Shown here: one piece after another, positions 3,467 to 19,848 of the stretch
Position numbering within the stretch: the first letter of the stretch is position 1
Layout of the letters: each line of letters begins with the position of its first letter
NCBI GenBank assembly: GCA_036490175.1
Contig: DASXEJ010000272.1
Location: 1-64,000, forward strand
Length of the DNA: 64,000 nt
DNA from: Pirellulales bacterium
GTDB lineage: Bacteria; Planctomycetota; Planctomycetia; Pirellulales; JACPPG01
Direction of reading: 5' to 3'
Notes under the pieces: generated by a model
What the model was told of the DNA's origin: nothing
The model's input: only the letters and a program-made list of their open reading frames with translations
The model's database searches: none
Position numbers and translations under genes: made by a program

Positions 3467-5968
3467 ATGACGACCGACTCTCGCATCACAGACTTGCTCT
3501 CTCGCTGGGACTCGCTCCGCGAGCAGGGGCAAACATTGTCTGTGGAAGAACTGTGCGGCCAACATCCGGAGCTCGCCGACGAGCTGCGCAAGCATCTCGA
3601 ACTGGCCGATCGTCCGTCGGGCTCGGTCAATGAAACTCTCAACGAGCCGGCGACCGCCGAATCAGACCCCTCGAGCGAAGTCGCCAAGGCCAGTCCGCGT
3701 ACCAAGACAAACTATCCGAACGTGCCCGGCTATGAGTTCGTCGGCGAGTTGGGCCGCGGCGGCATGGGCGTCGTCTACAAGGCGCGGCAAACGAATCTGA
3801 ATCGCCTGGTGGCCATCAAGACCATCCTGGCGGGAGAGCAGGCGGGCACGCGCGACCGGGCGCGATTCTACGCCGAAGCCGAAGCCGTCGCGCGGCTCGG
3901 CCATGCCAACATCGTGCAGATCTATGACATCGGCGAGTGCGACGGCGCACCGTATTTCTCGATGGAGTTTGTCGACGGCCCTAGCCTGCATCGCCGGCTG
4001 GAAAGCAAGCCCGTCGATGCGACCACCGCGGCATTGCTGATCGAGACGGTGGCGCTGGCGATCGACTATGCACATCAGCGCGGAATCGTGCATCGCGATC
4101 TGAAGCCCGCCAACATTCTGATGGCGGGACCGGCGGACGCCTCGTTGCAAGATTGCACGCCCAAGCTCACCGACTTTGGCCTGGCGCGGCAACTGCAAGA
4201 AGACGTGCGCTTGACGCAGACCGGCGTCGTGTTGGGAACGCCCTGCTACATGGCGCCCGAGCAGGTCGAAGACCCCACGGCCGATATTCATCCCACGGTC
4301 GACGTTTATGGCTTGGGTGCATTACTGTACGAGCTATTGACGGGTCGACCGCCGTTTTCGGCGCCGACGAATTTCGAGACCATGCGACAGGTCGTCACGG
4401 ACGCGCCCACCAAACCATCCTTGTTGCAGCCTTCGGTGCCGCGCGCTCTCGAACAAATTTGCATGAAGTGCCTGGAGAAGCGGCCCAAGGACCGCTATCC
4501 CTCGGCGCAAGCGCTGGCCGACGATCTGGCGACGTTCCTCGAAGGAGAACATCCCTCGGCGGCGCTCGAGCGGCCCAGCGGAATGCGTCGCTGGCGCGGA
4601 CGCCGCCCGATATCTTCACGGGGAGGGCGGGGCCAATCACGGGCCGAGCGCAACTGGCAACTAACGATGATCGGCCTGCTGTCGTTGGTCGTCATCATGA
4701 TGGGAATTGCCGGACTGGTTCATCATCGCAACAAACATCACGAATCTGCCGACGGCGCAGGCGCGACGGCGCTACCCGTGATCCCCCTGGCGCCGATCCG
4801 CGTGGGCGTGCTGCACTCGCTGACCGGCACGATGGCCATCAGCGAATCGGCCGTCGTCGACGCCACGCTGTTGGCGATCGACGAACTGAACGAACAGGGA
4901 GGCCTGCTGGGGCGGAAGATCGAAGCCATCGTGCGCGACGGCCGCTCGGACTCTGCCACCTTTGCCGCCGAGGCAAAGAAGCTGATCAAAGACGAGGGCG
5001 TCTGCACGGTTTTCGGCTGTTGGACTTCGGCCAGCCGGAAGACGGTGCTCCCCATCTTCGAGACCAACGACAACCTGCTCGTGTATCCCGTGGAGTTCGA
5101 GGGATTGGAGGAATCAACCAACGTCGTCTATATCGGCGCGGTACCCAACCAGCAGATCATTCCGGCCGTGAAATGGTGCTTTGCCTTTCTGGATCGGCGG
5201 CGATTCTTTTTGATCGGTTCCGACTATGTATTTCCGCGTGCCGCCAACGAGATCGTCAAGGATGAATTGAAGAAGCTGAAAAGTTCGGGGGTCGAAGTCG
5301 TCGGCGAGGCTTACATTCCGATGGGAGAGACCGATTGCGCCGACGTCATCCGCCAGATCAAGGAAGCGCGGCCCGACGTCATACTGAATTCCATCAACGG
5401 CGACAGCAACATCGCCTTCTTCCGCGCGCTGCGGACCGCGGGGATCAAACCGGGAGAGGTGCCGGTCGTGTCGTTCTCGATCGGCGAGCAAGAATTGCGC
5501 AGCATGAAGATCGAGGACGTGGTCGGCGACTATGTAGCGCGCAACTACTTCCAAAGCACCGACCGGCCGGAAAATCAGAAGTTCCTGGAACGATTCTGGG
5601 CCCGCTACGGCCAACAGCGGGTCGTCGGCGACGCGATGGAATCTGCCTATCTGGGCGTACACCTGTGGGCGCAAGCCGTAGCGAAGGCGGGCACGGACGA
5701 CGCGATGAAAATCCGCGACGGGTTTCGCGGCCAGGAGTATCTTGGCCCGGGCGGACGCGTGTATGTCGATCCTGTGCTGCTGAATACGCACCGCATCTCG
5801 CGCATCGGGCGCATTCGCTCGGACGGTCAGTTCGATGCCATCTCTGGATCCGAAAGCCCGGTCGCGCCCGAAATTTTTCCCAAGACGCGTACCCGCGAAC
5901 AGTGGGAAGCGTTCTTGGAGTCGCTCTACGACAAGTGGGACCACAGTTGGAGTGGCCCCACCGAATAG
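3467..5968 (+). CDS. membrane Ser/Thr protein kinase fused to a urea/amide-type substrate-binding domain
   Basis: The 833-residue protein joins two functions. An N-terminal helical region with DELRKHLE, common in planctomycete kinases, precedes a complete Hanks-type kinase: GRGGMG near 95-100, catalytic Lys118 in VAIK, HRD at 209-211, DFG at 236-238, MAPEQ activation-segment end. One membrane span follows at about 399-419. From about 445 the exported part matches the UrtA/AmiC/FmdD family of ABC substrate-binding proteins (RVGVLHSLTGTMA, DGRSDS, VPNQQ, GDSNIAFFRAL, GDAMESAYLGVHLWAQA). Such proteins bind urea or short amides. The likely role is a one-component receptor kinase: ligand outside, phosphorylation inside. 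The ATG at 3467 is chosen over a frame 71 codons longer because kinase relatives start with this kind of sequence; no clear Shine-Dalgarno decides it. No urt permease genes are nearby. It converges on the SDR gene, 9 bases away. Confidence 0.92.
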   Translation: MTTDSRITDLLSRWDSLREQGQTLSVEELCGQHPELADELRKHLELADRPSGSVNETLNEPATAESDPSSEVAKASPRTKTNYPNVPGYEFVGELGRGGMGVVYKARQTNLNRLVAIKTILAGEQAGTRDRARFYAEAEAVARLGHANIVQIYDIGECDGAPYFSMEFVDGPSLHRRLESKPVDATTAALLIETVALAIDYAHQRGIVHRDLKPANILMAGPADASLQDCTPKLTDFGLARQLQEDVRLTQTGVVLGTPCYMAPEQVEDPTADIHPTVDVYGLGALLYELLTGRPPFSAPTNFETMRQVVTDAPTKPSLLQPSVPRALEQICMKCLEKRPKDRYPSAQALADDLATFLEGEHPSAALERPSGMRRWRGRRPISSRGGRGQSRAERNWQLTMIGLLSLVVIMMGIAGLVHHRNKHHESADGAGATALPVIPLAPIRVGVLHSLTGTMAISESAVVDATLLAIDELNEQGGLLGRKIEAIVRDGRSDSATFAAEAKKLIKDEGVCTVFGCWTSASRKTVLPIFETNDNLLVYPVEFEGLEESTNVVYIGAVPNQQIIPAVKWCFAFLDRRRFFLIGSDYVFPRAANEIVKDELKKLKSSGVEVVGEAYIPMGETDCADVIRQIKEARPDVILNSINGDSNIAFFRALRTAGIKPGEVPVVSFSIGEQELRSMKIEDVVGDYVARNYFQSTDRPENQKFLERFWARYGQQRVVGDAMESAYLGVHLWAQAVAKAGTDDAMKIRDGFRGQEYLGPGGRVYVDPVLLNTHRISRIGRIRSDGQFDAISGSESPVAPEIFPKTRTREQWEAFLESLYDKWDHSWSGPTE

Positions 5969-6965: not shown

Positions 6966-7559
6966 TCAAGGAAACCGTTGAGAAAGATCGAGCGGCATCA
7001 GGCTCGGGAGACGATCACGGTCGATCTCCAAGGGCTCGTTTTCTCCCGTGGCCCAGGCTCGCGCGCTGGACCAATTCCACGATTCTGGTGACGTCGCAAG
7101 CCCGCGCCGCACCGGGTTGTTGTGTACATATTCGATTTTCTCGTAGACATCGCGCAGGCTGCGGAGATTGCGGTCGTAGCCCCCGCCGCGCTGCCAGAAA
7201 CGGTACGATCTTCGTCCGCTCGGCCGAACGTCTTCGAGCATCGCAAGAAAATCGGGCGACGTTTCCGCCAGGTAACGCAGGGCCTTTTTCGAAACCGACT
7301 GTTTAACTGTTGATAGTATTTGCGCAACTTTTACATCTTGCTTTGGGCGCATCACGATATGTACGTGCTCGGGCATAACTACAAAGGCCCACAGGTCAAA
7401 TTGGCCACGTTGTCTTGCGAGGGCCAATGCATCGACAAACCACTGACAGCTGCGCGGCTTTGAAAGCAGCGGCAACCGATGAAAGCAAGAAAACGTCAGA
7501 CAATGCACATCGCCGGGCGAGTCGAAATGAACGAGCCGCTTGCGATGTGGGAGTGTCAT
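6966..7559 (-). CDS. REP-associated tyrosine transposase (IS200-like Y1 transposase, RAYT)
   Basis: A 197-residue Y1 transposase-family protein. It shows the HUH motif as HVH at 65-67 within WAFVVMPEHVHIVM, and the catalytic tyrosine in IEYVHNNPVRRGL (Tyr144), which is the signature of RAYTs rather than of IS200 itself. RAYTs are single-copy domesticated transposases that cleave and mobilise REP palindromes, and such palindromes flank this gene on both sides. I place the start at the ATG ending at 7559. A frame opening at 7610 begins inside the right palindrome and adds 17 residues that are simply palindrome sequence. There is no clear Shine-Dalgarno for either start. The frame is intact, so the protein may be active. 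Confidence 0.9.
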   Translation of the reverse strand: MTLPHRKRLVHFDSPGDVHCLTFSCFHRLPLLSKPRSCQWFVDALALARQRGQFDLWAFVVMPEHVHIVMRPKQDVKVAQILSTVKQSVSKKALRYLAETSPDFLAMLEDVRPSGRRSYRFWQRGGGYDRNLRSLRDVYEKIEYVHNNPVRRGLATSPESWNWSSARAWATGENEPLEIDRDRLPSLMPLDLSQRFP

Positions 7560-7582
7560 TGTCGAATCCGTAGTCCGTTCGG

Positions 7583-7612
7583 CATGCCCACGCCAGCGTG
7601 GGCATGGCACCC
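7583..7612 (-). repeat. REP-like palindrome right of the RAYT gene
   Basis: CATGCCCACGC, CA, GCGTGGGCATG (7583-7606) is a perfect 11-bp stem, followed by GCACCC (7607-7612). On the minus strand it reads GGGTGCCATGCCCACGC, almost the same as the left element's first half. It is the inverted partner of 6929-6959. Confidence 0.75.
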
Positions 7613-14445: not shown

Positions 14446-15933
14446 ATGTCCCGCATTTCGTCTTGCGCCTCCTGCCACGGCGACTTTCTGATTCCTGGAG
14501 CTTCGCAGCCCAAGGATCAGATGCGTTGCCCGTTGTGCAATGCGCAGTTCCTGGTGCAGGATGTGCTTGCTGGCAGCATTTTTGCGCCGCCCGAGGCGAT
14601 ACCGGTCGCACCCTCGGGCGCTAGCCTGAGGGCGAGCGCCGGGGCACGGCAACCGCGGCCGGCCGAGCCGGTCGACTTCGATGCCGAGACGATCGACGTC
14701 CAACCGCCGCAGCGCCGCAAGCAGCCCGGAATCTTTGCGCATCTCATCGGCATTGTCGGCGGGGGCATTCTTGGTCTCTCGCTGGGATATTTGGGGCTGT
14801 TGCGCTTTGGCGGGCCGCAGTACGACTTTCTGCACATTGGCAACAAACTGCCTCCCTGGGTCACGGCCCCCTTACCGCGGCTGTTCCCTGGGAAAGATGA
14901 CGCCGGATTGGAACCGCCTCGTCACGAGCGCGGACTCGAAGATCTGCTGAACCAGCCAGACCAACCCCCTACGGTAGACTTGCAACCTGCCGGTGGACCC
15001 ACGCCATTCGACACCGCGCCCCCATTTTCGCCGGCGCCTGGTTCTACATCGGCTCCTGTTTCATCGACTGCGCCCTTTTCAGCGCCGCCCTTCTCGGCGG
15101 CGCCGCCAGACGCCTCGATAATGCCGTCGCCACAGACTGTGCCGCCGGCCGATGCTTATCCGGTGCCGATGAACGAAGCGCCTCTACCGCAGGCGCAGCC
15201 CGGCGCGCCGCCATCCGCCGAAGCGCCGGCCAACCCGCCTCCGCCGCAGGGAGTTCGTCTTGGTCCGCGACAGTTCTCGGCCTATTCGGCCGAAGACCTG
15301 GCGTTGGCCGTGAACGAGGTCTCGGCCGCCTGGCGGTGCTCTGTTTGCAACGGAACTGGCCAAGGCGCGCGTCCCGTCGTCACCGGCGTTCGCGAAGCGG
15401 GGGGCCCCAAGGTTCAGCAAGCCGCTGATCACCGCGCGCCGTGCGACGCGTGCGGCGGCAAGCCGATTGCCAAGATGACGCCCGACCTGTACGCCAAGCT
15501 TTGCCACCTGGCGGAAGTCGTCACGTTTGTTTCCAAAGGCGATACCAGTGCCTGGAGTCAACGCGAGACGGTGCAAGGCCTGCTGGCGACAGCCGGCGCC
15601 GACCAAAAGGCGGCCGAAGCGATCGGCCGCTTGGCCGGCTTTCAGCTCGAACCAGGACATCATAAGGATCCCGGCATCGCGCTGGCCGGCACGGTCCAGG
15701 AAATGTCGCAGGTCGGCAGCCTGTTCGGCATGAAAATCGTGTTGTTCGGCCTCCCCAAAGTCGTCACGGTCGTCAGCTGGCGTCCGGCCCAGCCCGCCAT
15801 TAACGTACACGACCGCGTGATCATTCTGGGGAGCATTGTGGAGAACCCCACCGAGAACCTGGTCGGCTACGAGGGGCGGCAGCCACAAGTCATCTGGGGC
15901 GGATTGCCCGCCAAGCTGTCGGCCCAGCCATAA
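14446..15933 (+). CDS. zinc-ribbon, single-span membrane protein with proline-rich linker and DnaJ-like cysteine motifs
   Basis: A 495-residue protein of unknown function. Two cysteine pairs (Cys7/Cys10 and Cys28/Cys31) form an N-terminal zinc ribbon. A transmembrane segment lies at about 105-125 (LIGIVGGGILGLSLGYLGLL). A long Pro/Ala/Ser-rich linker follows to about 270. The C-terminal domain carries CSVCNGTGQG and CDACGGK, which resemble the CxxCxGxG zinc motifs of DnaJ, then a beta-rich tail. GGAG precedes the ATG by 6 bases. This architecture recurs in planctomycete hypothetical proteins, from memory. It heads a run of plus-strand genes and may be co-transcribed with the gene at 16020. 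Confidence 0.75.
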   Translation: MSRISSCASCHGDFLIPGASQPKDQMRCPLCNAQFLVQDVLAGSIFAPPEAIPVAPSGASLRASAGARQPRPAEPVDFDAETIDVQPPQRRKQPGIFAHLIGIVGGGILGLSLGYLGLLRFGGPQYDFLHIGNKLPPWVTAPLPRLFPGKDDAGLEPPRHERGLEDLLNQPDQPPTVDLQPAGGPTPFDTAPPFSPAPGSTSAPVSSTAPFSAPPFSAAPPDASIMPSPQTVPPADAYPVPMNEAPLPQAQPGAPPSAEAPANPPPPQGVRLGPRQFSAYSAEDLALAVNEVSAAWRCSVCNGTGQGARPVVTGVREAGGPKVQQAADHRAPCDACGGKPIAKMTPDLYAKLCHLAEVVTFVSKGDTSAWSQRETVQGLLATAGADQKAAEAIGRLAGFQLEPGHHKDPGIALAGTVQEMSQVGSLFGMKIVLFGLPKVVTVVSWRPAQPAINVHDRVIILGSIVENPTENLVGYEGRQPQVIWGGLPAKLSAQP

Positions 15934-16019
15934 GAGAGCGCGCAGCAGGATCATCTGGGCGGGCCACGTGCGGCGGTCGCCGCTAGCGCTTTCGCATGCA
16001 GCAGCAATGGTGAGCCATC

Positions 16020-17081
16020 ATGCCCGACCCGGCCGACGAGACACCCGGCGAGACGCCTGATCCGGGCTACGCCGCCATAGCCAAGTATCTGCGCTATACG
16101 CTCTCGCTACCCGAGCGGGCCTTGCGATCGACGACGGCCGTGGTGGCCGGCGCGGCGCGTGAGAGCGCGGCATTGCTGGTGCCGCAAGCGTTTCAGAACT
16201 CGCAAAGCTATTCGGTCATGATCCGCCAAATGCTCGACTTCCTGGCCGAGGACGTCGGCGGTACGGCGCGCCCCGCGTCCGCTGCGACAGGCTCCGCCGA
16301 TGTGCAGAACTTCGTGGCCCGCAAAGCGGTCGGCAACTTTATCGACATGGCGAACCTGGCGACGTTTCATATCTCGCCGGCTCTGTTATTGGCCGTGGTC
16401 AGCGACATTGCCTATGGCTCGCAGGCATATCTCGGCGAGTTGGCCGATCAACTGAAGCGCGAAGGCGTGATCGACCACAACAGCACGATCCATCACGTCG
16501 ACGATCTACTGGACGCCGTGGCCAAGGCGTCGAGCACCACGGCCAATGCCTTCAACACGCCCCCATTGTCCGTCGACGGGCTGCGCGAGACGATCAACCA
16601 AACGCGCGAATCGTTACGTTCGATCGATCCCGCCACGGTGATCCCGCAAGCCGAGCTCGGGCGCCTCTGGAACGACATCCAAGAGATTGCCCAGCGCGAG
16701 CATGTTAGCCCGCTGGCGATCTCGGGCGCCATGACGTTGTTTGCCCTCACGAAGATGCAGACCGTGGCCCGCGGCGCACTTTCGGGCGTGCGCGTGGCGG
16801 GTCAATTGTTCGACCGGCATGTGATCGATCACTACGAATCGGCGCTGACCGAGATTCGCAACCGAGGGCTGTACGCCACGCTGCGCGAATCGAGCGCGCC
16901 GTATATCGATGCCGTTTGGCAGAACTTCTCGACCGACAAGGCGACGATTACCGAAGGCCTGCTCACGGGCGAGCTGTTGGGTCAAGGCTGGGCGGCCGTG
17001 CGCCGGTGGTTTGGCACGACAAAAGCGGAGGGGCCGCCGGAAGAAACGGACCCCGCGCTTAAGCCCGGGGACTCCATCTAG
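16020..17081 (+). CDS. helical protein of unknown function
   Basis: I do not recognise this 353-residue protein. It has no signal peptide. It is predominantly helical and alanine-rich, with moderately hydrophobic stretches (TTAVVAGAARESAALLVPQA; ISPALLLAVVSDIAYGSQAY; AISGAMTLFALTKMQTVARGAL) that could be amphipathic or membrane-associated. A GGTGAG lies 5 bases upstream of the ATG. Its 86-base distance from the preceding zinc-ribbon membrane protein suggests a shared transcript. Codon usage looks like that of the neighbours. Confidence 0.65.
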   Translation: MPDPADETPGETPDPGYAAIAKYLRYTLSLPERALRSTTAVVAGAARESAALLVPQAFQNSQSYSVMIRQMLDFLAEDVGGTARPASAATGSADVQNFVARKAVGNFIDMANLATFHISPALLLAVVSDIAYGSQAYLGELADQLKREGVIDHNSTIHHVDDLLDAVAKASSTTANAFNTPPLSVDGLRETINQTRESLRSIDPATVIPQAELGRLWNDIQEIAQREHVSPLAISGAMTLFALTKMQTVARGALSGVRVAGQLFDRHVIDHYESALTEIRNRGLYATLRESSAPYIDAVWQNFSTDKATITEGLLTGELLGQGWAAVRRWFGTTKAEGPPEETDPALKPGDSI

Positions 17082-17278
17082 CCCGCGCCGGGCCGCCCGC
17101 AAGCCTTTCCCCCTTGGCACCCTCGTTTCTTTGCGGGACCGCGATCCGCGGCCTGTAGCGGCCGGGACATGTTCCGCCCCGAGCGCAGCTTTTTTCTGTA
17201 ACACCCTGGAACACCTTGCGCTAGTGATACCTGGATGGATGAAGTACCAGGGTTCCTAAACTTGCAAGGGAGGTTCCA

Positions 17279-18511
17279 ATGTTCGCGCACTTGAGAAACA
17301 CGGTCTGCATGTTGTTCGCCACGGCTGTTTTCAGCATGGCTGCCAACCCGGCTGCGGCAGCCCGGTTGGGCGGAATGGGTGGCGGCGCCATGGCCCACGT
17401 GGGCAATTCGTCGCGCAGCCTGTCGGCGGCGACGGCCGGAAAATTGACCCCCAAGAACCTGACGTCGAACAAATTGAAGTTGGCCAACACCACCATTAAT
17501 AAGGTCCCCGTCACGACGGTGTCGGCCCCACTGCTACCGACGAAACCCGTCTTCCCGATTGGGCCCGTAAATCCCGTGGTCCCGGTGAACCCGATCGGTC
17601 CCGTATACCCTGTCTTCCCTGTCGGACCGGTGAAGCCCGTGTTTCCCGTTAACCCTGTGTACCCCGTTGGTCCAGTGAAACCCGTGGGCCCAGTGAAGCC
17701 CATTGGGCCCGTGTACCCTGTGTTCCCCGTGGGTCCCGTGAAACCGATCGGCCCAATAAGCCCCGTGGGCCCCGGACTCCCTGTCGGCCCGACAAACCCC
17801 ATTGGCCCGGTGAAACCGATCGGCCCAATAAGTCCCGTCGGTCCCGGGCTCCCCGTCGGCCCGACGAACCCCGTCGGTCCCGTGAATCCCGTTCAGCCGC
17901 CCGTGACCACGACACCTCCGACTTCGGGCAATCCGTATCCGGGTGGCTCCTACTCAGGCGGACTTGGCGGACTGTTGGGATTGCTGCCGCTGGGTGGCGG
18001 ATTCGGAGGCGGGGCCGGTGGTGGATCTAGTGGCGGGGTTGGTGGTGGCGTCGACAGCGGATCGACAATGGTGGCGGACGCTCCGGCGACTCCTGCCGTT
18101 ACGACCCCGATCGCAGCCACGTCAGGGATCGACTTGCAAATCGTCGATGTCCGGCTGATCGACAATGGCGATGCCAGCCGCCAGATTGGTCCCTGCTACC
18201 GTGTCACGTTCCGCAACGCCGGGTCGACAACCGTCGACCATGAGTTCAACGTGGCGTTGGTGGCTGCCGACGGTGCCAACCTGACATCGGACCTGCCACT
18301 GTCCGAGACACGTGTCGCTTCGCTCGCCAGTGGCGGCCTGAGCCACGTCGACGTGCGACTGCCGGTCACCGCTTTCCAAATGGGAGCCGATTCCCACAGC
18401 GAGTTCGGCAAGCTGTTCGTCTTCGTAGACAGCCATCGGGAAGTCAACGAAACGAATCGCGACAACAACGTGGCGGGCTTCGACCGTACGACGATTCAAC
18501 CGGCGGCCTGA
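17279..18511 (+). CDS. exported proline-rich (P-V-X)n repeat protein with C-terminal CARDB domain
   Basis: A 410-residue exported protein. AAGGGAGG lies 5 bases before the ATG. The signal peptide spans about 1-28. Residues 89-208 form a nearly unbroken (P-[VI]-X)n array, which should adopt an extended polyproline-like rod. A Gly-rich stretch (about 222-262) leads to a CARDB-type Ig-like domain at about 284-405 ([41 protein letters not shown]), a cell-adhesion-related fold. The most likely role is a surface or extracellular-matrix stalk with an adhesive head. A strong terminator follows at 18542. The opposite strand of the repeat reads as a collagen-like Gly-X-Thr series, which I regard as a by-product. 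Confidence 0.85.
17543..17902 (+). repeat. triplet-codon (Pro-Val-X)n array with a 72-bp tandem duplication
   Basis: Forty consecutive three-residue units of P-[VI]-X type make up this coding repeat. Within it a 72-base block starting at 17738 is repeated in tandem at 17810 with few, mainly silent, differences, which shows recent expansion by slippage or unequal recombination. Confidence 0.85.
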
Positions 18512-18541
18512 GTGCAGTACGAAATGCCATCGGCACATCGC

Positions 18542-18577
18542 AAGCGGGACGGTCTACGGACCGCCCCGCTTTTTTTC
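18542..18577 (+). terminator. rho-independent terminator after the repeat protein
   Basis: AAGCGGGACGGTC and GACCGCCCCGCTT pair around a TACG loop (with one internal mismatch), followed by a run of seven T. It lies 30 bases past the CARDB gene stop. Confidence 0.85.
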
Positions 18578-18759
18578 GTTTCTAGCGAGGCACGCGGCGG
18601 CTCGATCTTTCCTGCGCAAGGACCGCTTAGGGCAGGGCCTGCCACGTTACAGCAGCGTCCGTCGTTACAACCGGAAGGGACGTTGTTTTCCGTGCTAGGC
18701 TTGTGGGACGGAAATATTGTGTCACAGCGACGATACTCCACAAGAAACCGCCGCGCGTT

Positions 18760-19848
18760 ATGGTCAGCGCCGAACAACGTCGAGCAATGCGACTTGCCAT
18801 TCCTCTCGGGCAGGATCACGGCGAGCTGCGCATTCACGGCCAGGATTATCCGGTCCGCCTGATCGATCAATCCGCCGGCGGCTTCGGCATTCAGTCGGAG
18901 ATTCCTCTAGAGATCAAAGACGGAGACATCGCCGCGCTCAGTTGGTCGGGCGGTTGCTGCCGCGTGCGTGTCCTCAATCGTTGCGAGGAAGAGAACTTTA
19001 CCCGGATTGGCGTCGAGCGGCTCGAGGAACTCGACTCGGCCGAGGATCTCGACATAAAGAATAGCATCTGGTCACTGCGCCGCCCGCGGATGCCCATGCC
19101 CGGCGCTAATCTGTCGTACTTTGTGTACGGCGTACTGGTGGTAGTGGGGTGCAGCATCGCCGGGTTGACCTGGGGGCTGATGCCGCACGATTCGAATGTC
19201 GCGTTGCAGGCGCCGGTATCGGCCAAAGAGAAAGCCGCTTCGGACGCAGCGGCGGTCGCGGTTCAGGCGCGCGCCAGGAAAAGCCTCACCGACTTCTCGA
19301 CATACGCGGGCCGGGAGATGCATCGCGCGCTTGACTCAAGTCGCATGCCCAAGGCAGCCCAGAAGTGGGTTGCGCAACGCGTGCAGGTGTTGAACCACGC
19401 GATGCGCGGCGTGATGAAGGCGGTGGTACGTGCCTCGGCTGATACGCGTCAGGCGGCGACCGCTGTCGAAGCGACGGCCCGCAGCACCATCGACTCGATC
19501 GGCCGCGCCGCGACGATGGGCAAAGATTCGATATTGCTCGAACTACCACGTTTCATGAACAACTTGCAGCTCACGAAGCGGCAGCGTCGCGAACTCGACA
19601 AGATATTGAAGGCCGCGCATGATGCGACACAGGATTTGCAGCGCCGCAGCCGCGAACTGGGGACGCAGGAAGTCATGCAGCAAATCGCCGAAATCCGCAC
19701 TACGGCCAGCCAGCAGGCGCTAGCCGCGCTATCGCCGGAACAGACCGAGCAATTGCTGGCGCTCGTCTCGAATGGGCACAGCACACAGAAAAAACCGCCC
19801 GCGGCGGAAGCCGCGCCTAAGTCGGCGGCGCAAAAGGGCCGGAATTAG
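18760..19848 (+). CDS. PilZ domain protein with membrane span and long helical tail
   Basis: A likely c-di-GMP effector of 362 residues. The N-terminal PilZ domain has both binding motifs: RxxxR as RRAMR (residues 7-11) and DxSxxG as DQSAGG. A transmembrane helix follows near residues 126-150 (YGVLVVVGCSIAGLTWGLM). The rest is an Ala/Arg/Gln-rich helical, probably coiled-coil region ending with LTKRQRRELDKIL and LSPEQTEQLLAL, reminiscent of LTxxQ (Spy/CpxP-type) motifs. PilZ would be cytoplasmic and the tail extracytoplasmic. I use the ATG at 18760, which places RRAMR at the usual distance; an in-frame GTG at 18703 is possible, and neither has a good Shine-Dalgarno. It converges on the PqaA-like gene across a 6-bp hairpin at 19848-19865. 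Confidence 0.75.
   Translation: MVSAEQRRAMRLAIPLGQDHGELRIHGQDYPVRLIDQSAGGFGIQSEIPLEIKDGDIAALSWSGGCCRVRVLNRCEEENFTRIGVERLEELDSAEDLDIKNSIWSLRRPRMPMPGANLSYFVYGVLVVVGCSIAGLTWGLMPHDSNVALQAPVSAKEKAASDAAAVAVQARARKSLTDFSTYAGREMHRALDSSRMPKAAQKWVAQRVQVLNHAMRGVMKAVVRASADTRQAATAVEATARSTIDSIGRAATMGKDSILLELPRFMNNLQLTKRQRRELDKILKAAHDATQDLQRRSRELGTQEVMQQIAEIRTTASQQALAALSPEQTEQLLALVSNGHSTQKKPPAAEAAPKSAAQKGRN

Follow-up and report, generated by a model that had tools for sequence, protein, structure and literature searches.

Overall architecture of the gene

The window, the whole analysed stretch of 64,000 nucleotides from a Pirellulales bacterium, contains at positions 3467–5968 of the forward strand a single unbroken frame that starts with ATG and is translated into 833 residues. 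The same protein, at full length and with the same junction, was found in three congeneric genomes (G001, G003, and G004; 66–70% identity). Therefore, an assembly artefact is excluded, and a split or frameshifted gene was ruled out on the same grounds. The E-values and the conservation exclude a chance match. The features of the gene are as follows.

3467..5968, + strand: gene for the predicted receptor Ser/Thr kinase, 833 aa and a stop codon (open frame; G001, G003, and G004 have full-length counterparts that share the junction)
3467..3616, + strand: N-terminal helical segment, aa 1–50 (model helices H5–19, H26–32, and H34–47)
3731..4522, + strand: Hanks-type protein kinase domain, aa 89–352 (PF00069, 1e-53; all motifs)
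4172..4261, + strand: activation loop from DFG to APE, aa 236–265, DFGLARQLQEDVRLTQTGVVLGTPCYMAPE, whose Thr and Ser residues are candidate autophosphorylation sites
4664..4720, + strand: predicted single transmembrane helix, approximately aa 400–418, rich in Arg on the kinase side (hydropathy peak 2.43; model helix 395–423)
4796..5890, + strand: UrtA/AmiC-type Venus-flytrap binding domain, aa 444–808 (PF13433, Peripla_BP_5, 1e-144; model; Foldseek)
5021..5029, + strand: putative pocket residues W519 and S521 (UrtA Trp120 and Ser122; comparison with the UrtA-urea contacts, PMC10392092)
5084..5101, + strand: putative pocket residues Y540 and E545 (UrtA Tyr141 and Glu146), with E543 in place of Gln144 and F544 in place of Tyr145
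5225..5233, + strand: putative pocket residues Y587 and F589 (UrtA Tyr190 and Phe192; pocket comparison)
5396..5398, + strand: putative pocket residue N644 (UrtA Asn246; pocket comparison)
5477..5479, + strand: putative pocket residue S671 (UrtA Ser274; pocket comparison)
5891..5965, + strand: C-terminal tail of the kind found in the sensory clade, TRTREQWEAFLESLYDKWDHSW (helix at aa 810–823 in both models)

The Pfam match (PF00069) and motif inspection identified all elements of a Hanks-type kinase: the glycine loop (GRGGMG, residues 96–101), the catalytic Lys (VAIK, 115–118), the HRD Asp and Asn (HRDLKPAN, 209–216), DFG (236–238), and APE (263–265). The N-terminal segment is also present on other planctomycete Ser/Thr kinases, and the alignment to many unrelated kinases of the order begins at residue 4. 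Ten Arg or Lys residues flank the transmembrane segment on the kinase side. This is the only hydrophobic segment, and the charge distribution predicts that the kinase lies on the inner side of the membrane and the binding domain outside. The predicted layout is that of a single-pass receptor kinase, in which one transmembrane helix connects an inside kinase with an outside ligand domain. An intact Hanks kinase, one membrane span, and a full UrtA/AmiC-type domain in one frame had been described in the initial annotation, and the open frame, Pfam, hydropathy, and the congeners all agree with this description. The NCBIfam model of UrtA (TIGR03407) was matched over its full length with 458.6 bits, slightly short of the cut-off of 492.75.

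Structure model and putative urea pocket

The binding domain was modeled by AlphaFold2 on an alignment of 66 relatives, with a mean pLDDT of 96.1. A Foldseek comparison placed urea-bound UrtA structures (8tg1, 7s6e, 7s6f, and 8hic) within 1.1–1.6 Å of the model. The nearest solved structures include a urea-binding protein from Caldicellulosiruptor (8tg1; 51% identity, 1.6 Å), and the cyanobacterial UrtA structures with urea (7s6e, 7s6f, and 8hic) lie at 1.1–1.3 Å. AmiC with acetamide or butyramide (1pea and 1qnl) lies at 1.6–1.7 Å. The structural comparison with UrtA and AmiC, suggested earlier as a check, gave a close fold in both cases. In the full-length model (mean pLDDT 77), the kinase and the binding domain were reasonable; the linker and the membrane segment had pLDDT values of approximately 25–65, and the model is therefore uninformative about signalling geometry.

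In UrtA from Prochlorococcus, nine residues are located near urea, and eight of them are strictly conserved in importers (PMC10392092): W120, S122, Y141, Q144, E146, Y190, N246, and S274, whereas F192 is variable. The window protein keeps eight of the nine (Trp120, Ser122, Tyr141, Glu146, Tyr190, Phe192, Asn246, and Ser274), that is, seven of the eight importer-conserved residues and the variable Phe192. The exception is Gln144, which is replaced by Glu543. The side chain of Gln144 holds a urea nitrogen in UrtA, and its mutation to Ala impairs binding (PMC10392092). Glu543 can act as acceptor for the same hydrogen bonds with urea, but it brings a charge; therefore, urea is a plausible ligand but not an assured one, and guanidinium-like compounds are reasonable competitors. 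The Glu543/Phe544 pair is shared by the congeners G001 and G003, and Gln is retained in G004. All eight conserved pocket residues are present in 25 of 40 kinase-fused domains and in all 15 UrtA proteins from urt operons. As judged from these residues, the window domain probably binds a ligand. The initial annotation had named loss of the ligand contacts as one finding that would speak against its reading; one contact has changed, and the other eight of nine are kept.

Relationship to importer UrtA proteins

A domain-alignment scan of named genomes returned 80 loci. Twelve of them are kinase fusions, another 12 belong to urt operons, with permease and ATPase genes next to them, and 43 are flanked by a receptor with a dCache-type N-terminal region; the remaining 13 are unassigned. 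In 41 of the 43 cases, the receptor lies on the same strand and starts where the binding-protein gene ends or close to it. Pfam analysis of 19 such receptors identified 10 histidine kinases (several of them hybrid), seven MCP chemoreceptors, one SpoIIE phosphatase, and a single PAS protein truncated at the contig end; their dCache_1 match is often under Pfam's curated score.

The kinase-fused and dCache-paired domains share a C-terminal tail with the consensus RxxWxxFLxxLYxxWxxxW, which is not found in the full C-termini of the 15 urt-operon UrtA proteins. The tails are distinguished by sequence rather than length, since cyanobacterial UrtA is about as long. The 40 kinase-fused domains cluster in a single branch of the domain tree, although the support is not decisive (SH-aLRT 81). 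This branch is located within otherwise sensory, dCache-paired domains and apart from importer UrtA, and a grouping of the window domain with importer UrtA was rejected (p-AU 0.0005). By its tail and its position in the tree, the window domain thus belongs to a sensory UrtA-like clade. The proposal that an import protein had been reused as the sensor needs correction, given the tail, the tree, the AU test, and the lack of an UrtB match over cut-off in the genome. Unchanged reuse of an importer subunit was ruled out by the tail, the tree, and the absence of UrtB. Because of its clade membership, the origin is better stated as the joining of a pre-existing sensory UrtA-like module to a kinase. 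This branch is widespread, apparently undescribed, and used for sensing rather than import.

The 43 dCache-flanked loci (L105–L178) consist of UrtA-like genes directly before dCache/HAMP receptors, in many phyla and in Nitrososphaerota. They have the look of a portable, so far undescribed sensing pair whose outputs (histidine kinase, MCP, or SpoIIE) are exchangeable. A different arrangement was observed in the planctomycete genome G291, where an UrtA-like domain is joined directly to a hybrid histidine kinase that carries two receiver domains (L089:4966–7809). The same genome also holds a Ser/Thr kinase fusion.

Kinase fusions across the order

Peripla_BP_5 scored over its cut-off in 131 of 297 genomes of the same order, and a kinase in the same frame was confirmed in 27 of the 297, from seven families. 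The belief expressed in the initial annotation, that such fusions exist in planctomycetes, was therefore correct. Two kinase-UrtA fusions are present in the genome of the window itself. The second (L002, contig C259:6045–7139, − strand; congener copies in L016 and L092) has an altered pocket: Tyr190 is replaced by Gly and Asn246 by Ser, and the equivalent of Ser274 is also lost. These replacements make a different ligand likely. Since this paralogue has lost more of the pocket, specificity drifts in the family, which counts against a urea-type ligand for the window protein.

In the kinase tree, the kinase domains of the window protein, of its congeners, and of G024 fall among ordinary planctomycete kinases. 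The comparison kinases were the best matches to the kinase of the window and favour that side; the split itself, a fully supported branch dividing window-type kinases from those of every other fusion, the own-genome paralogue among them, is independent of this choice. The fusion kinases (window 3731–4522 versus L002 and the others) thus belong to two lineages, yet their binding domains share a single branch. This reflects either a swap of the kinase or two fusion events involving related binding domains. The AU test was compatible with the fusion lineage of the window inside or beside the other fusions.

Two further observations concern relatives. A kinase-UrtA fusion was found on a contig labelled Myxococcota (L136, in a Deltaproteobacteria MAG), reflecting either transfer between phyla or a misbinned contig. 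A sub-branch with an altered pocket (L012, L039, L041, L043–L062, L119, L121, L124, L127, and L130), from the planctomycete family f8 and others, has Gln144 replaced by Ala, Phe192 by Trp, and Asn246 mostly by Val. The receptors scanned beside this sub-branch are chemoreceptors. Its ligand is probably larger or less polar than urea, as far as the replacements indicate.

Gene neighbourhood and genome context

The next gene is convergent and encodes a short-chain dehydrogenase, the preceding gene matches DUF3887 weakly, and a gene of the asparaginase family is located 2.2 kb upstream on the other strand. No local operon partner or pathway-supporting neighbour was found at the locus, and the downstream gene order shared with two congeners contains no signalling partner. 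Elsewhere in the window, four consecutive frames of 353–495 aa on the same strand (14446–19848, +) have no Pfam match; relatives of the first, at 56–58% identity, lie downstream of the same block of genes in two congeners. A weak IS200-type transposase match just under the Pfam cut-off (6966–7610, −) is located beside a conserved DUF1552/DUF1592 pair and has no counterpart there in two congeners of the same gene order.

The initial annotation had noted that no urt genes are nearby. This is correct, and in the whole genome no match to UrtB, urease alpha, or urea carboxylase reaches its curated cut-off. The arginase-family ureohydrolase has no match in this genome and none in the genus, and no guanidine-I riboswitch was found in 20 genomes. 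A link with urea use was rejected on the lack of urease alpha and urea carboxylase matches over cut-off and of any arginase-family match in the genome, although these absences are provisional because the genomes are incomplete (that of the window is 96% complete). A role in nutrient uptake is therefore doubtful. Among the 297 genomes of the order, UrtB is over its cut-off in four, all of which have urease, and the fusion is present in 27, with no genome shared. The receptor kinase and the importer are thus not partners, although the overlap is too small for a statistical test. An acetamidase/formamidase-family gene (PF03069) is present in five of five genomes of the genus, as a weak match (about 71 bits) on another contig. 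It is absent from the fusion-carrying genomes G005, G006, G024, and G050.

Proposed function and alternative explanations

The best explanation is a single-pass Venus-flytrap receptor Ser/Thr kinase that would sense urea or a closely related small amide or amidine through a binding domain from the sensory UrtA branch; we give it a probability of about 0.68. The one-protein receptor kinase with a urea/amide-type domain that was first proposed thus stands in its sequence, model fold, and eight of nine site residues, but urea itself is not assured. Several observations count against the explanation: the replacement of Gln144 by Glu, the lack of a urea-using enzyme over cut-off in the genome, the pocket losses of the own-genome paralogue, the low model confidence across the linker and the membrane helix, and the lack of a neighbouring gene pointing to a pathway. 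Binding of such a ligand would close the outside UrtA-like domain. Closure would be passed through the single membrane helix as a changed arrangement of the paired receptor chains, and the inside kinases would then phosphorylate each other's activation loop and subsequently their targets. This scheme follows the workings of PASTA kinases and solute-binding-protein receptors as they are understood; PMC9602780 covers binding-protein-driven receptors and PMC6069109 GlnH-GlnX-PknG. The anatomy, the fold, the pocket residues, the clade membership, and the lack of urt and urease genes at family cut-offs were shown by the analysis, whereas we infer kinase activity, the ligand, pairing, the transmembrane signal, and the targets.

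A receptor kinase of the same build could instead have its pocket shifted to a cationic urea analogue, such as guanidinium, formamidine, or acetamidine, because Glu543 puts a negative charge where UrtA has Gln. The change from Gln to Glu with the adjacent change from Tyr to Phe is common to two congeners, and the geometry of the remaining contacts is kept. However, Gln is kept in the third congener, Glu is able to accept the same hydrogen bonds from urea, and neither a guanidine-I riboswitch nor an arginase-family ureohydrolase was found in the genus, which leaves this ligand class rather unlikely. It is likewise doubtful that the domain is an AmiC-like sensor of short-chain amides, read alongside a cellular formamidase or acetamidase. 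AmiC is a structural neighbour at 1.6 Å and the PF03069 gene occurs throughout the genus, but the domain lacks the YPTPYEG signature of AmiC, its pocket resembles that of UrtA, and the PF03069 match is weak, on another contig, and missing from four other fusion genomes.

The outer domain might also have a structural or protein-binding role without ligand signalling, with the kinase otherwise regulated. The pocket has lost residues in several relatives and in the second fusion of the own genome, which indicates that pocket function is not always under selection. We regard this explanation as improbable for the window protein, since eight of nine site residues are kept at an overall identity of about 46–51% to the UrtA structures and the whole pocket is kept in 25 of 40 fusions. 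The strong UrtA match (TIGR03407, 458.6 bits) would suit an importer UrtA that was recently fused to a kinase and still serves transport. However, the match is under the UrtA cut-off, the sensory-clade tail is present, the importer grouping was rejected in the tree, and UrtB is under its cut-off in the genome; this explanation is largely refuted and highly improbable.

Comparison with known systems

Compared with UrtA of the UrtABCDE importer (8hic, 7s6e, and 7s6f; PMC10392092), the window protein is alike in fold (1.1–1.3 Å), sequence (46–47% identity), and eight of nine near-urea residues. It differs in its fusion to a kinase through a transmembrane helix, its sensory-clade tail, the Glu in place of Gln144, and the lack of a permease and ATPase. 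AmiC, the sensor of the Pseudomonas amidase operon (1pea and 1qo0), has the same family fold turned to small-amide sensing. However, AmiC is soluble, acts by binding AmiR, and has about 30% identity and a different pocket motif. In the GlnH-GlnX-PknG system of mycobacteria and corynebacteria (PMC6069109 and PMC9769921), a solute-binding protein likewise controls a Ser/Thr kinase, but the system consists of three separate proteins with another binding-protein family and Asp or Glu as the ligand, whereas the window protein is one chain. The PASTA kinases (PknB, PrkC, and StkP) also combine an inside Hanks kinase, a single transmembrane helix, and an outside ligand domain in one chain; their outside domain consists of PASTA repeats, whereas that of the window protein is a Venus flytrap. 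The UrtA-like and dCache receptor pairs (L105–L178) share the domain clade and the tail, and most of them have the urea pocket. However, their binding protein is separate, and the receptor has its own dCache domain and histidine kinase, MCP, or SpoIIE outputs.

Binding-protein-controlled kinases and chemoreceptors are already known, AmiC is an established case of this fold acting as a sensor, and databases carry automatically assigned names such as 'bifunctional Ser/Thr kinase/ABC substrate-binding protein'. In the literature searched, mostly open-access, neither a urea-type receptor Ser/Thr kinase nor the pairing of UrtA-like proteins with dCache receptors was described. The main text of a 2024 survey of planctomycete kinases gives WD40, TPR, sulfatase-modifying, and DUF1080 as outside domains, and we found no mention of a binding-protein domain in that main text (PMC11032199).

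Our knowledge of the window protein can be extended with a single protein: because its pocket is comparable residue by residue with solved urea-bound structures, the ligand and activation are testable. Planctomycetes have dozens of Ser/Thr receptor kinases per genome, and to our knowledge very few bacterial Ser/Thr receptor kinases have a known ligand. More tentatively, the clade may be a portable receptor module for urea or small amides in many phyla and some archaea, which plugs into histidine kinases, chemoreceptors, SpoIIE phosphatases, and planctomycete Ser/Thr kinases of two lineages, with urea as an environmental signal rather than a nutrient in host cells without known urea use; we hold this to be possible, somewhat short of probable. 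The wider clade is a natural set for studying one small-molecule receptor wired to different outputs, and it suggests that urea or a mimic may be a signal in organisms without known means of using urea.
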